A stretch of DNA of 41,595 nucleotides from Myxococcales bacterium. GTDB taxonomy: Bacteria > Myxococcota_A > Bradymonadia > UBA7976 > UBA1532. The stretch spans positions 1-41,595 of the forward strand of contig CANLBD010000003.1 of assembly GCA_947488215.1 (NCBI GenBank), given 5' to 3'. Shown in pieces: positions 28,736 through 33,866 of this stretch; positions within the stretch are counted from its first letter, which is position 1; each line of letters begins with the position of its first letter. The position numbers were made by a program, and so were the translations under genes. Below the pieces are notes generated by a model, which made no database searches, was not told the DNA's origin, and saw only the letters and a program-made list of their open reading frames with translations.

Positions 28736-29884
28736 TCAGCGAAAGCGCAGGCCGACGAGCGCGCACAGGGTCTCGAGGCCCGTCACAGGCCCGAGCGCGT
28801 TCGTTGTGGTGAGCGCATAGGAGCCCACAATGACGAACATCGTCACAATCCGCAGCGCGACGCGCTCCGCCAGCCCTGAGGTGCGTCGCCACTTCTTGCG
28901 GCGCTTGAGCTGCTGCCAGAGCTGAAAGGCGCCCAAGCAGGTCCCGTGGTAGGCGCCCCAGAGCAGCCAGTTCAGCGACAGGTGGTGCCAAGACGCCATG
29001 ATCGCCATCGATGCGTAGCCCGACAGGATCGGCCGCCGCGTGAGGCCGAGCACCGGCAGGTACACATAGTCGCGGCACCACCCCGAGAGCGAGATGTGCC
29101 AGCGCCGCCACCACTCGCCGACGTTGGTCGAGAGCCACGGGCGGTCGAAGTTCTCAGCGATGCGCCAGCCCAAGAGACGTGACGCCCCGAGGCCCATCGA
29201 CGAGTAGCCGGAGAAGTCGAAGTAGACGTAGACGCCCACACCAAAGAGGGCCGCCCAGAGGCGCCACGCCGGGATCGCGGGCAGGCTGTCGTCGAGTGTG
29301 GCGAAGGGCACGAGCGCCATCAGCCGCGTGCCGACCATCTCAGCGATGACAAATTTTGCGACCAGGCCATGCACGATCCGCGTCAGGCCGACCTCGAGGT
29401 CCTCGCGAGACAAGCGCTCGGTGCGCCCGTCTCGGAAGGCGTCCCACCGCTCGATCGGACCCGCGACGAACGCGGGAAAGAGGCAAAGCCAGCGGGCCAA
29501 CTCCGCCGGCGGCGCAGGCGAGAAGCGACCCCGCGCGACCTCGACCGTGTAGTGAATCAGCTTGAACGTGAAATACGACAGACCCAGCGGTGCGGCGAGG
29601 CTCGAGCCCTCGAAGACGAGCTTGAACCCGACGAGCATCGAGGCAAACCCGCCGACGAGCGCGAACGTCAGGCGCCGTCCGCGGAGCCCGCCCGCTGCGA
29701 GGGTAGGCCCGAGCGCGACCAGCGCTGCCCACGCCGGCACCAGGATGGCCAAGGCTCTCCAGTCCCACGACGCCACGAGCGCCAGCGAGACAACGAGCGT
29801 GAGCGCACCACGCCAGGCGGGCCGAAGCGCGCCGACCGCGACCAAGCCGCCGAGCGCGAGCCAGAACCATGCGCTCCCGACCAT
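28736..29884 (-). CDS. MBOAT-family O-acyltransferase (DltB/AlgI-like)
   Basis: GLSYFTFKLIHYTVEVARG; FPAFVAGPIERWDAFR; YFDFSGYSSMGLGASRLLGWRIAENFDRPWLSTNVGEWWRRWHISLSGWCRDYVYLPV; ASWHHLSLNWLLWGAYHG. Confidence 0.95.
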   Translation of the reverse strand: MVGSAWFWLALGGLVAVGALRPAWRGALTLVVSLALVASWDWRALAILVPAWAALVALGPTLAAGGLRGRRLTFALVGGFASMLVGFKLVFEGSSLAAPLGLSYFTFKLIHYTVEVARGRFSPAPPAELARWLCLFPAFVAGPIERWDAFRDGRTERLSREDLEVGLTRIVHGLVAKFVIAEMVGTRLMALVPFATLDDSLPAIPAWRLWAALFGVGVYVYFDFSGYSSMGLGASRLLGWRIAENFDRPWLSTNVGEWWRRWHISLSGWCRDYVYLPVLGLTRRPILSGYASMAIMASWHHLSLNWLLWGAYHGTCLGAFQLWQQLKRRKKWRRTSGLAERVALRIVTMFVIVGSYALTTTNALGPVTGLETLCALVGLRFR

Positions 29885-29888
29885 GCCC

Positions 29889-30026
29889 TCAGAACCCCGC
29901 GTACCGAAAGACGCGGGCCCCCGCGCTCGCGGCGTAGAGCCCGCCGAGCGCGATGACGAGGAGCTGACCCAGGACGATGATCTGCAGCGCGATGCCCACG
30001 GCGCGCGCGACGCGAGGGGAGATCAT
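29889..30026 (-). CDS. DltX-like 45-aa membrane microprotein ending in FRYAGF (FxYxxF)
   Basis: Hand translation of the minus strand: MISPRVARAVGIALQIIVLGQLLVIALGGLYAASAGARVFRYAGF*. Not in the supplied ORF track (<60 aa). ATG overlaps the upstream TGA (ATGA 30023-30026). The stop lies 4 nt before the MBOAT ATG. One TM helix. Confidence 0.85.
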   Translation of the reverse strand: MISPRVARAVGIALQIIVLGQLLVIALGGLYAASAGARVFRYAGF

Positions 30027-31108
30027 GGGCGCACCGTCGACGGGTTGGGCTCGCTCAGGTGACGCGCGACAAGCGCGGCCAGACGCGCCTCGTATCGACG
30101 CATGGCCTCCTCGGAGCGCAGGTGGGTAAAGTCGTGAAAGTCCTCATCGACGAGGGCGGCCTCGGCGTCGAGGTCGACGAGCGGCACGCCGAGGCGCGCC
30201 GCAAGGGGCGCCACCCGTGCACGGGCAGCGCTCCGCGCCTCGGTGAGCGCGGGGCGAGCACGCGGCGCCAGCGGCGGCTCGAGCAGAATCGGCCGCCACT
30301 GCGTCTGGCGTTGAAGATGCGTGAGCGTCTGCTCGAGGGCGACCAGATGGGCGCTCACGAGGGCATCGTCCTGGGCACGCTGCTCGAAGCCGACGCGCAA
30401 GGCGTCGACGCGTTCGACCCAGCGCTCGTCGGTCCACTGCCTGCGCCCAAGGTAACGATGGCGTCTCGGCTCGGGCGCACCCAATGCCAGCCAAACCGGA
30501 ACCTGAGGGCGACTCACGAAGAACTGCAGGTGGTCGAGGAAATAGAGCCCCGTGGCCGTCCGCTCGGGCATACCGAGCACACGCGCGACCGCGTTCATTT
30601 CGTCGACCGCGAGCGCGCTCGTGGGGTGCTCGAACCGTGTCTGCAGGTCAGTCCGGTCAGCGAAGAGCGTGCCGGGGCCAATCCCGAGCACCACGACGCC
30701 CCGGGGGGTCTCTGGCAGCGCGCCGAGAACGACGAGCGACTCCCCGAGCGCCTGCCCCCCCGATGTCAAGTTGAAAGCGCCCAAGGTCGTTTCTCTTGGC
30801 TGCTCGAGCGCGTCCGCCACCGAGTCGCGGAGAGTGTCGATGTGCCAGAACGCCTCGCGCATGCTCGACGCGCCGACGAGCGCGACGTGGGCAGAGCGAG
30901 CGGGTTCGCGCTGCGCCGTCACCAGCGCGTGCGTGAGCGCGGCGCCGTCGTCGTCCACGTTGCGCGCCAAGACACCCGGCTCGAGGCGTGCAACGACATC
31001 GGGCGTGACGAAGACACACAGCGCGGCGATCTCGACCAGGGCAAAAGCGATGACCCCCAGGGTGACGCTGAGCCGAGGTCGAAGCGCGCCATCGAGGAAC
31101 GCGCTCAT
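30023..31108 (-). CDS. Membrane-anchored SGNH-hydrolase-like acyltransferase (DltD/AlgX-like role)
   Basis: N-terminal TM (LSVTLGVIAFALVEIAALCVFV). GxS block VALVGASSMREAFW. C-terminal DxxH block FHDFTHLRSEEAMRRYEARL. Confidence 0.78.
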   Translation of the reverse strand: MSAFLDGALRPRLSVTLGVIAFALVEIAALCVFVTPDVVARLEPGVLARNVDDDGAALTHALVTAQREPARSAHVALVGASSMREAFWHIDTLRDSVADALEQPRETTLGAFNLTSGGQALGESLVVLGALPETPRGVVVLGIGPGTLFADRTDLQTRFEHPTSALAVDEMNAVARVLGMPERTATGLYFLDHLQFFVSRPQVPVWLALGAPEPRRHRYLGRRQWTDERWVERVDALRVGFEQRAQDDALVSAHLVALEQTLTHLQRQTQWRPILLEPPLAPRARPALTEARSAARARVAPLAARLGVPLVDLDAEAALVDEDFHDFTHLRSEEAMRRYEARLAALVARHLSEPNPSTVRP

Positions 31109-32031
31109 TCCCCGCCGCGCGCTCGGCTCGCCGACAACATCTGGCCAAGCTCGAGCTGTCGGAGCGCCTCCTCCGCGGAGCGCTCTTTGACTTGCTTCAG
31201 CGCCGGGTAGCCCGCGCGCACGGCGACGTCGTTCACGAGGCCACCGAGACGCGAGATGGTGTGCTTGGAGAGCTGTGTGTAGCGACCCACGCTCTGCTGG
31301 TCGACCTGGGTCCGCTCCAGCAGCTTCCAGTCACCGAAGCCGACGGGCGCGCGGTCGGAAACGGCGGCCGCGACCGCACCGGGTGACGGGGCGAGGCCGA
31401 GGGCTTCGAAGAGGCGAGCGGCCTCGGACTCAGGCTGCGCGACGAGCGCTTCGTAGCGCACCACGACGGTGTCCGACGCACGACGCTCCGCGAAGTCGAG
31501 GAGGCGGGTCGTGATGTCCGCCCAAGCTTGCGCGAGGGCGACGCAGACGTTCGGCTCGCGGCGAATATAGCCGTGAATCTCCTCGGGGAAGCGCTGGCTG
31601 CGCGCGAAGAGCTCCTGCATGCTGACCACGACGTCGAGGGGGTGCCGGAGCAGCACGACATAGGTCACCGCTTCGCCGCACAAATCCTCGATGGCGTCGA
31701 GGTGAAAGGCGTTGAAGGGCGTCTTCTCGGCCCAGACTCGTCGGCCTCGGCGCTGCGCGTGCTCTCGCATGAAGCCGAAGACAAACTCGCGTGTCCGCGC
31801 GACGACGTCGGCCGCCTCAAAGCCCGCGAACGCCAACCCGCTCCGCACGCCGACGTGCAGACCTTCGGCGATGGTCTCGTCTTCAAGGAACCGGGCGCCC
31901 GCGCGGAGCAGGTGCGTCTCCGGTGGGCACGCCACCTCGGGGTGGGCGTCGAAGATGCGCTGCAGCAGGGTCGTCCCTGAGCGCGGCAGCGCGAGCACGA
32001 CGACCCCCTCGCGCGGCGCGCGCTCAGCCAC
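31105..32031 (-). CDS. PAPS-dependent sulfotransferase family protein
   Basis: VVVLALPRSGTTLLQRIFDAHPEVACPPETHLL (5'-PSB loop); VWAEKTPFNAFHLDAI; YVVLLRHPLDVVVSM. GTG start, 8-nt overlap with the upstream gene. Confidence 0.9.
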   Translation of the reverse strand: MAERAPREGVVVLALPRSGTTLLQRIFDAHPEVACPPETHLLRAGARFLEDETIAEGLHVGVRSGLAFAGFEAADVVARTREFVFGFMREHAQRRGRRVWAEKTPFNAFHLDAIEDLCGEAVTYVVLLRHPLDVVVSMQELFARSQRFPEEIHGYIRREPNVCVALAQAWADITTRLLDFAERRASDTVVVRYEALVAQPESEAARLFEALGLAPSPGAVAAAVSDRAPVGFGDWKLLERTQVDQQSVGRYTQLSKHTISRLGGLVNDVAVRAGYPALKQVKERSAEEALRQLELGQMLSASRARGGE

Positions 32032-33601
32032 GAAAGCCCTCTTCGAGCATGCGGCCGAGGGCCTTGCGGTCGACCTTGCCGTTCACATTCAGCGGGAACT
32101 CCGGCAGCACATGGACGCGGCTCAGGCCGATATACGGCGGGAGGCGCCGGGCCACAGCCGCCTTGAGAGCCTTCGGATCGGCGTTCACGCCCGCGACGAA
32201 GCCGACGATGCCGTCGTAGCCCGCGTCGTTCTTCGGCCACCCGAGCGCGACCGCGAAGTCGGTCTCCGCGACCGCGCGGATCGCCGCCTCGACCTCGCCG
32301 AGCTCGATGCGGTAGCCGCGCACCTTGATCTGCGTGTCAGCGCGCCCCTGGAACGTCATCGGCGCGCCGTCGACCGGGCGGCGCACAAGGTCGCCCGTGC
32401 GGTAGTGCACCGCGTCCGAGCCGGGCGGCACAACGAAGGCGGCCGCGGTCTTCTCGGCGTCTCGCCAGTAGCCGAGCGTGACCTGCGGGCCCGCCATCAA
32501 GAGCTCACCGAGCTCACCCGGCGCGACCTCGGCCAGGTCCGCGTTCACGACCCGCGCGGTCATCCCCGGAAACGGGTCGCCAATCGGGACGAGCCCATTC
32601 TCACACTCGGCGGGCGAGCGGTCGGCGTTCCACGTGTACCAGGTGCACGCGAGCGTGAGCTCGGTCGGGCCGTAGAGGTTCTCTACGACCGAGTTCGACG
32701 CCGCCTCGGCCCACGTGCGCGTGACGTCCGCGGGCAAGGCCTCGCCGCAGAAGAGGCTCACCTTGAGGTTGGGCAGCGCGCCGGGCTCAAGAAAGCCGAG
32801 GCGCTTCATGAGCACGGCCGTCGAGGGCACAGAGAACCAGACGGTCAGGCGCGCGTCGTGCACGAACTGGCCGACCGTGAGCATCTGCGCCTTCGTCGGG
32901 CAACAGACACAGGCACCGACCCACCACGCCGCGAACATGTCGAAGCCCGACAGGTCAAAGACGAGCTCGAAGAGCTGCGAGAAGCGGTCTTCGGGGCCCA
33001 ACGGATAGCGCGCGAGGACGAGCTCGATGAAGCGAACCAGGTTGCCCTGCGAGACCATCACGCCCTTCGGCTGACCGGTGCTGCCCGACGTAAAGAGCAG
33101 GTTCGCAATGGCGTCGCTGGCGAGGGCCGGGAGAGGGTCCTGCGCGGCGTCGTGGAGCGCATCCGCCGTGACGAGCGTATGCGGCGCAGGGACGCTTGTC
33201 AGACCGTCGACGGCCTCGGGAACGAGGACGACCAGCGGGCGGTCCACCAGACGCAGGAGCTCGTCGAGCTTCGGCAGCCCCTGCGCGTCCACGATGACCG
33301 CGTCGACTTCGGCGCGCTCGAGCATGCTCGCGAGCCGGTCGACGGGAAAGTCGGGGTTCATCGGGACGTACCCGTGCCCGCGATAGAGCGCCCCGAGGAC
33401 GCCCGCGTACGCAGTGGGGCTGCGCTGGGCGAAGACGGCCGTGAGGGGCTGCCGCGGGCTCGGCACGTGCGCTGCGAGCGTCGCGGCGATGCGGCGCGCG
33501 AAGGCGTCCAGCGCGCGGTAAGTGAGCGTCTGCTCGCCGACCTCAAGGGCAGGCCGGTCGGGGTGGAGCGCGACTGACCTGAGGAAGCCGGCCCGAATCA
33601 T
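32024..33601 (-). CDS. Amino-acid adenylation enzyme (stand-alone NRPS A-domain / DltA-like)
   Basis: LLFTSGSTGQPKGVMVSQGNL (A3), FDLSGFDMF (A4), NLYGPTELTLACTW (A5), YRTGDLV (A7), GRADTQIKVRGYRIELGEVEAAI (A8), PLNVNGKVDRKAL (A10). ATG at 33601. Confidence 0.93.
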   Translation of the reverse strand: MIRAGFLRSVALHPDRPALEVGEQTLTYRALDAFARRIAATLAAHVPSPRQPLTAVFAQRSPTAYAGVLGALYRGHGYVPMNPDFPVDRLASMLERAEVDAVIVDAQGLPKLDELLRLVDRPLVVLVPEAVDGLTSVPAPHTLVTADALHDAAQDPLPALASDAIANLLFTSGSTGQPKGVMVSQGNLVRFIELVLARYPLGPEDRFSQLFELVFDLSGFDMFAAWWVGACVCCPTKAQMLTVGQFVHDARLTVWFSVPSTAVLMKRLGFLEPGALPNLKVSLFCGEALPADVTRTWAEAASNSVVENLYGPTELTLACTWYTWNADRSPAECENGLVPIGDPFPGMTARVVNADLAEVAPGELGELLMAGPQVTLGYWRDAEKTAAAFVVPPGSDAVHYRTGDLVRRPVDGAPMTFQGRADTQIKVRGYRIELGEVEAAIRAVAETDFAVALGWPKNDAGYDGIVGFVAGVNADPKALKAAVARRLPPYIGLSRVHVLPEFPLNVNGKVDRKALGRMLEEGFRG

Positions 33602-33623: not shown

Positions 33624-33866
33624 TCAGCGGGCTTGCTTGGCCGCGACGAAGCGCAGCACGCGCCCGACCGAGTCGAGGTTGCCCAAGTTGACGTCGCCCG
33701 GCGTGAAGCGCAGGCCGGCGCGCTTCTCAACGAAGGCCACGAGCGTGACCATCGAAAAGGAGTCGAGCAGCGCGCTGCTGAACAAGAGCGTCTCGTCCTC
33801 GACCGGCTCGTCGAGGTCGAGCTCGGTCTGCAGGAACTCAAGCAGGTCCGCACGGGTGAGCGACAT
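33624..33866 (-). CDS. Acyl/peptidyl carrier protein (DltC-like role)
   Basis: 80 aa. MSLTRADLLEFLQTELDLDEPVEDETLLFSSALLDSFSMVTLVAFVEKRAGLRFTPGDVNLGNLDSV, with a phosphopantetheine-Ser motif (LDSFSM). Confidence 0.9.
   Translation of the reverse strand: MSLTRADLLEFLQTELDLDEPVEDETLLFSSALLDSFSMVTLVAFVEKRAGLRFTPGDVNLGNLDSVGRVLRFVAAKQAR

Follow-up and report, generated by a model that had tools for sequence, protein, structure and literature searches.

A 45-residue microprotein as the putative acyl shuttle in a probable Dlt-type aminoacylation pathway of diderm bacteria

One question raised by a contig of a Myxococcales bacterium (CANLBD010000003.1) is what a 45 amino acid protein does between the genes of an SGNH transferase and a DltB-like MBOAT acyltransferase. 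The whole stretch of DNA that was analysed, called the window here, is 41,595 nt long. The acyl-Tyr mechanism was experimentally established for DltX and for the fused form of its motif, as in PatA, whose Tyr is acylated (PMC12148441). Pathways other than Dlt were described as lacking the carrier protein and a DltX-like microprotein (PMC12148441), and DltX itself is conserved among Firmicutes, with a short ORF that is often overlooked in genome annotation (PMC5541007). In the window, the microprotein gene is the fifth of six in a compact operon on the minus strand, located after gyrA and before a hemL-like aminotransferase gene, in the order carrier protein, adenylation enzyme, sulfotransferase, SGNH, microprotein and MBOAT:

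33624..33866 (-): acyl/peptidyl carrier protein (DltC analogue), 80 aa, with a conserved Ser in DSF; from weak profile matches and the family alignment
32024..33601 (-): stand-alone amino-acid adenylation enzyme (DltA-like), 525 aa, with its ATG at 33601; from TIGR01733 and pocket motifs
31105..32031 (-): PAPS-type sulfotransferase (Sulfotransfer_3), a recurrent cassette member; from Pfam
30023..31108 (-): SGNH transferase with an N-terminal TM helix, G79-x-S81 and D326xxH329 invariant; from alignment and model
30023..30026 (-): ATGA stop/start overlap from SGNH to microprotein, shared by the two ORFs
29889..30026 (-): 45-aa single-helix microprotein, putative acyl shuttle (DltX-like); from translation and orthologues
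29892..29909 (-): C-terminal FRYAGF, with F40, Y42 and F45 invariant in the family and Y42 as the proposed acyl carrier; from alignment and motif count
28736..29884 (-): MBOAT acyltransferase, DltB-like, 382 aa, without a fused motif, H263 and H300 invariant in the family; from PF03062 and the DltB fold

The initial annotation had described a 45-aa ORF with one transmembrane helix that ends in FRYAGF and lies, ATGA-coupled, between the SGNH and MBOAT genes. Each of these points is borne out: MISPRVARAVGIALQIIVLGQLLVIALGGLYAASAGARVFRYAGF* is the exact translation of 29889-30026(-), a single hydrophobic helix covers residues ~9-27, the last six residues (29892-29909) are FRYAGF followed by the stop TGA at 29889-29891, the overlap with SGNH is at 30023-30026, and the MBOAT ATG (29884) is found 4 nt past the microprotein stop. 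The MBOAT also ends in LCALVGLRFR and carries no such motif, as had been stated.

The MBOAT is matched by PF03062 (2.5e-21) and by TIGR04091 DltB (2.3e-55, below the equivalog cut-off), a sequence search of the PDB gave DltB as its only relative, and its model (pLDDT 88) matches DltB with a TM-score of 0.78-0.81. The active-site His pair of DltB is His289/His336 (PMC11035591), to which we mapped H263 and H300 of the window MBOAT. No Pfam family reaches its cut-off for the SGNH protein, and there is no sequence-family match, but the G-x-S81 and D326-x-x-H329 motifs are kept throughout the family, and the five best PDB fold matches of its model (pLDDT 92.8) are all DltD, with a low TM-score of 0.34-0.41. 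The features of an MBOAT-SGNH envelope acyltransferase are present (catalytic-type His, an SGNH partner and the shuttle hexapeptide in trans), and so are two marks of a Dlt system, a DltB-type MBOAT without a fused motif and a DltD-type SGNH protein with GxS and DxxH. The adenylation enzyme scores above the TIGR01733 cut-off, with DltA models next best and below theirs (226 for the DltA equivalog, with a cut-off of 560); its pocket motifs FDLS, LFCGE and NLYGPTE resemble those of a Bacillota DltA (L096; L-numbers denote fetched relative loci). From general knowledge of adenylation enzymes we assume that the FDLS Asp binds the amino group, and the role of the Cys in LFCGE was assigned in the same way. 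For the carrier protein, DltC models reach 12-15 bits, below the cut-off, and the DSF Ser is conserved in the alignment.

The carrier protein and the DltA-like enzyme were absent from the initial finding; their presence in the operon makes the case for a DltX-like function stronger and a Dlt-type aminoacyl relay the best reading. We suggest, with a probability of about 85%, that the microprotein ferries the acyl group across the inner membrane as part of a Dlt-type aminoacylation system of its diderm host. The genes, their order and coupling, the conservation, the exclusivity of fused and separate motif described below and the model folds of MBOAT and SGNH are observations, while the acyl-Tyr chemistry, the formation of a complex, the amino acid, the acceptor and the physiological role are inferred. 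In the proposed mechanism, a small amino acid such as D-Ala or Gly would be loaded onto the operon's carrier by the adenylation enzyme. From there the DltB-like MBOAT would hand the aminoacyl group on to Tyr42 of a periplasmic FRYAGF tail, and the SGNH protein would accept it on Ser81 and esterify an envelope acceptor, probably a glycan. No acceptor genes or polymer-related genes were found linked to the operon within the window.

The microprotein resembles DltX (dltXABCD, PF12459) in its length of about 45-50 aa, its one TM helix, its C-terminal F-x-Y-x-x-F and its neighbours, which are a DltB-type MBOAT, an SGNH protein, a carrier and an adenylation enzyme. It differs in its place between SGNH and MBOAT, where DltX leads its operon, in a tail that in most members reads F-R-Y-x-[GNA]-F and not F-I-Y, and in its diderm hosts. 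PF12459 has no match in the window genome and none to the microprotein at E up to 10, and hhalign of the microprotein family with four Bacillota microproteins aligned only 12 columns of the tail with a probability of 5%, from a comparison set that is small (a PF12459 search of 61 Bacillota drew one locus). The Pfam DltX family was therefore rejected as the family of the microprotein, since the profile similarity is confined to the tail; 45 residues are too few to tell whether its helix and that of DltX share an ancestor. The label DltX-like, which had been given at the outset, is well supported for function, by the conserved motif and its exclusivity, but not for family. PatA/PatB, AlgI/AlgJ and related pairs share the MBOAT, the SGNH protein and the acyl-Tyr hexapeptide logic; in the window, however, a separate protein supplies the motif, which is missing from the C-terminus of a shorter MBOAT, and a carrier protein, not acyl-CoA, is the probable donor. 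Dlt-like loci of the Gram-negative plant pathogens Dickeya and Pectobacterium (PMC5541007, PMC10142376) are similar in having Dlt functions outside Gram-positives, and no shuttle of the microprotein's family is described in the passages of the two papers that were consulted. PF12459 gave no match above the cut-off in 369 sampled Gammaproteobacteria.

An MBOAT-based scan of GTDB genomes gave 30 loci, in which the small ORF accompanies the MBOATs most like the query (Myxococcota, Magnetococcales, Phycisphaerae, Pirellulales, Parabeggiatoa, Rhodobacteraceae, Henriciella, Hydrogenedentes and Binatota). Orthologues of the microprotein at the equivalent SGNH/MBOAT junction come from at least five phyla (Myxococcota, Magnetococcales, Gamma- and Alphaproteobacteria, Planctomycetota, Hydrogenedentota and Binatota), F40, Y42 and F45 of F-x-Y-x-x-F are invariant in a 14-row alignment, and the 4-nt overlap of SGNH stop and microprotein start was measured at 12 of 14 loci, the window included. 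The idea would have been refuted by relatives that lack the ORF or its terminal motif, a test proposed with the initial annotation, and it was not: 13 further loci keep the ORF, its position and the motif, and the start/stop overlap with SGNH, also named there as a check, recurs. In another genus of the same family (L003/L049) the order is changed to ligase, sulfotransferase, MBOAT, SGNH and microprotein, and even so the microprotein of L049 is ATGA-coupled to the SGNH stop. Selection of loci by MBOAT similarity favours the same architecture, and a blind search with the microprotein alignment alone as query is for this reason important. It covered about 1,350 genomes (298 of the Rhodobacteraceae family, 284 Myxococcota, 395 Planctomycetota and 369 Gammaproteobacteria) and gave six new copies, all beside an MBOAT of the family type (fragmentary in L103); five have a recognised SGNH gene and the sixth (L105) is at a contig end with a ligase and a carrier nearby. 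The microprotein is rare, found in 2-4 genomes per set, and because of this sampled frequency of about 1% the number of loci behind the evidence is modest. Plasmid records gave 88-90 MBOAT matches, all below 60% identity and with no close family member; among the matches listed they are 28-42% identical, general MBOATs or DltB.

Some of these loci depart from the usual form. A second copy in one Phycisphaeraceae genome (L103:7611-7847) has an intact-looking SGNH gene and microprotein beside a 78-aa MBOAT fragment, which may be decay or an assembly error. The tail in L105:5431-5712 is FQYQGW, with Trp for the last Phe. A divergent Hydrogenedentota locus (L066:3149-5733) has the order MBOAT-SGNH-microprotein and the tail FRYMHF, and was missed by the family model.

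One possible option is that Gram-positives were the source of the operon, which would then be a classical D-alanylation (Dlt) system that transfers D-Ala alone, to an acceptor resembling teichoic acid. The same five functions (A, B, C, D and X) are found, the folds match DltB and DltD, and the LFCGE Cys is as in DltA. Yet, in an MBOAT tree made by a quick method, the diderm microprotein MBOATs form a clade of their own (support 99), separate from that of the fused-motif MBOATs (99) and from three Bacillota DltB-like proteins, which stand apart and are weakly placed. The DltA, DltB and DltC models are all far under their cut-offs and PF12459 fails, and a sulfotransferase is foreign to Dlt. Moreover, the DltA-like enzyme, which is found in seven loci (the window, L049, L054, L055, L058, L077 and L078), has its place taken in other members by an enzyme of the ligase_PEP_1 type, accompanied by a PLP decarboxylase, or by an amino acid--ACP ligase. 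Such an acquisition is hence unlikely, though it retains some weight.

Other cassettes have an exosortase-A-associated-type ligase (ligase_PEP_1), which in several loci comes with a matching PLP decarboxylase (L050, L053, L057, L106 and L108). Charging enzymes homologous to the exosortase A-associated ligase and decarboxylase (TIGR03098, TIGR03099) occur in about half of the related cassettes but are missing from the window, whose enzyme is DltA/NRPS-like. The decarboxylases closest to TIGR03099 are at L050:2977-4233, L053:4201-5469, L057:75-1427, L106:12345-13586 and L108:3115-4368; together with the TIGR03098-type ligases they hint that the exosortase set of ligase, decarboxylase and carrier makes a carrier-bound amine acyl group. 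L107 has a relative of amino acid--[acyl-carrier-protein] ligase (L107:4249-5373) and an AurF-like oxygenase (L107:3261-4193), and no AMP ligase was detected in the 16 kb of this locus that were read. In L052 (L052:8059-10009) the neighbours of the carrier include a formyltransferase and a PLP enzyme similar to D-cysteine desulfhydrase, which suggests yet another acyl chemistry. The sulfotransferase is also found in L049, L050, L053, L055, L057, L058, L077, L107 and L108, thus in about half of the cassettes and with both main charging types; its substrate could be either the acyl group on the carrier or the same acceptor.

The transfer core looks constant and the charging enzyme exchangeable, and this points to amino-acid-derived acyl groups in general, with D-Ala or Gly inferred for the window. 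A wider proposal, which is tentative and to which we give slightly less than an even chance, is that these cassettes are a hitherto undescribed class of mobile, modular machines of diderm envelope aminoacylation. They would join a fixed core (carrier, DltB-like MBOAT, their own shuttle family and DltD-like SGNH) to interchangeable charging enzymes (DltA-like ligase, exosortase-type ligase with PLP decarboxylase, or SerRS-like amino acid--carrier ligase), often with a sulfotransferase, and decorate a glycan with varied amino acids and sulfate. The diderm branch with its own shuttle family, a recurrent sulfotransferase and interchangeable charging enzymes is new with respect to open-licence PMC papers, the only literature that was covered, and a newer description is not excluded. 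A separate shuttle microprotein together with a carrier has so far been limited to teichoic-acid D-alanylation (PMC12148441), and the diderm branch has both. Until now the shuttle role was credited to a separate small protein in Gram-positives only; the present family, which Pfam does not cover, offers a second sequence family for testing the acyl-Tyr model. The branch also suggests an exchangeable charging chemistry and, for Myxococcota, Planctomycetota and Rhodobacteraceae, points to as yet unknown surface polymers that are aminoacylated and may be zwitterionic.

Another explanation gives the microprotein a structural or regulatory part, as a subunit joining MBOAT and SGNH, with the acyl group passing directly from the MBOAT to the SGNH Ser. 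A single TM helix encoded between both genes would fit such a role, and Q15, G20, L23 and A26 of this helix are nearly invariant among the 14 aligned microproteins, which suggests helix packing. However, the invariant tail matches the motif whose Tyr is acylated in PatA and which is used by DltX (PMC12148441), and this motif is either fused or separate. Among the MBOAT-selected and blind loci, none of the 36 MBOATs with their own C-terminal F-x-Y-x-x-F has a microprotein nearby, 24 MBOATs (the window counted) have a microprotein and no fused motif, and no MBOAT has both, which is a clean split. In this count the L054 MBOAT is cut by the contig end, and the microproteins of L059 and L108, over which the MBOAT ORF extends upstream, were missed by the script and seen on reading the loci. 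A purely structural or regulatory role is thus improbable, and the acyl shuttle remains the preferred reading. Two MBOATs of Myxococcota/Deltaproteobacteria (L065:6558-8042 and L075:2627-3976) have neither motif nor microprotein, and each adjoins an ORF of ~720 aa.

The ORF is short and GC-rich, and without it the intergenic space would be small, but an open frame that arose by chance with a coincidental motif is refuted for practical purposes by conservation across phyla, purifying selection, the absence of motif background at stop codons and the blind recovery. The background was counted on the window and 30 related loci (414 kb, window + L049-L078; ORFs of at least 30 aa): F-x-Y-x-x-[FW] stands exactly at the end of 24 of 3,878 ORFs, all of them MBOATs or small ORFs within an MBOAT locus, and the microprotein is the only such ORF among the 360 of the window. 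The microprotein of the sister locus L049 is 73% identical, with codon-position identities of 0.76/0.90/0.68, and dN is lower than dS in this pair (0.20 vs 0.43) as well as in L051/L078 (0.34 vs 1.88). Judged by codon-position identity and dN/dS, the microprotein is a real coding gene under purifying selection; its translation is inferred. No Pfam or NCBIfam model matches it above the cut-off. A MELAN-A match (E 0.061) was attributed to chance, and weak microprotein matches in family genomes (E 0.1-1) are consistent with random TM segments.

The charge of the helix flanks is on average +1.75 on the N side vs +0.5 on the C side of the microproteins, and the flanks of the window protein have a net charge of +2 on both sides, which makes the topology call weak for this protein itself. 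On average, the predicted orientation that this bias favours is N-in, C-out, and the tail would then be periplasmic, as the shuttle model requires.
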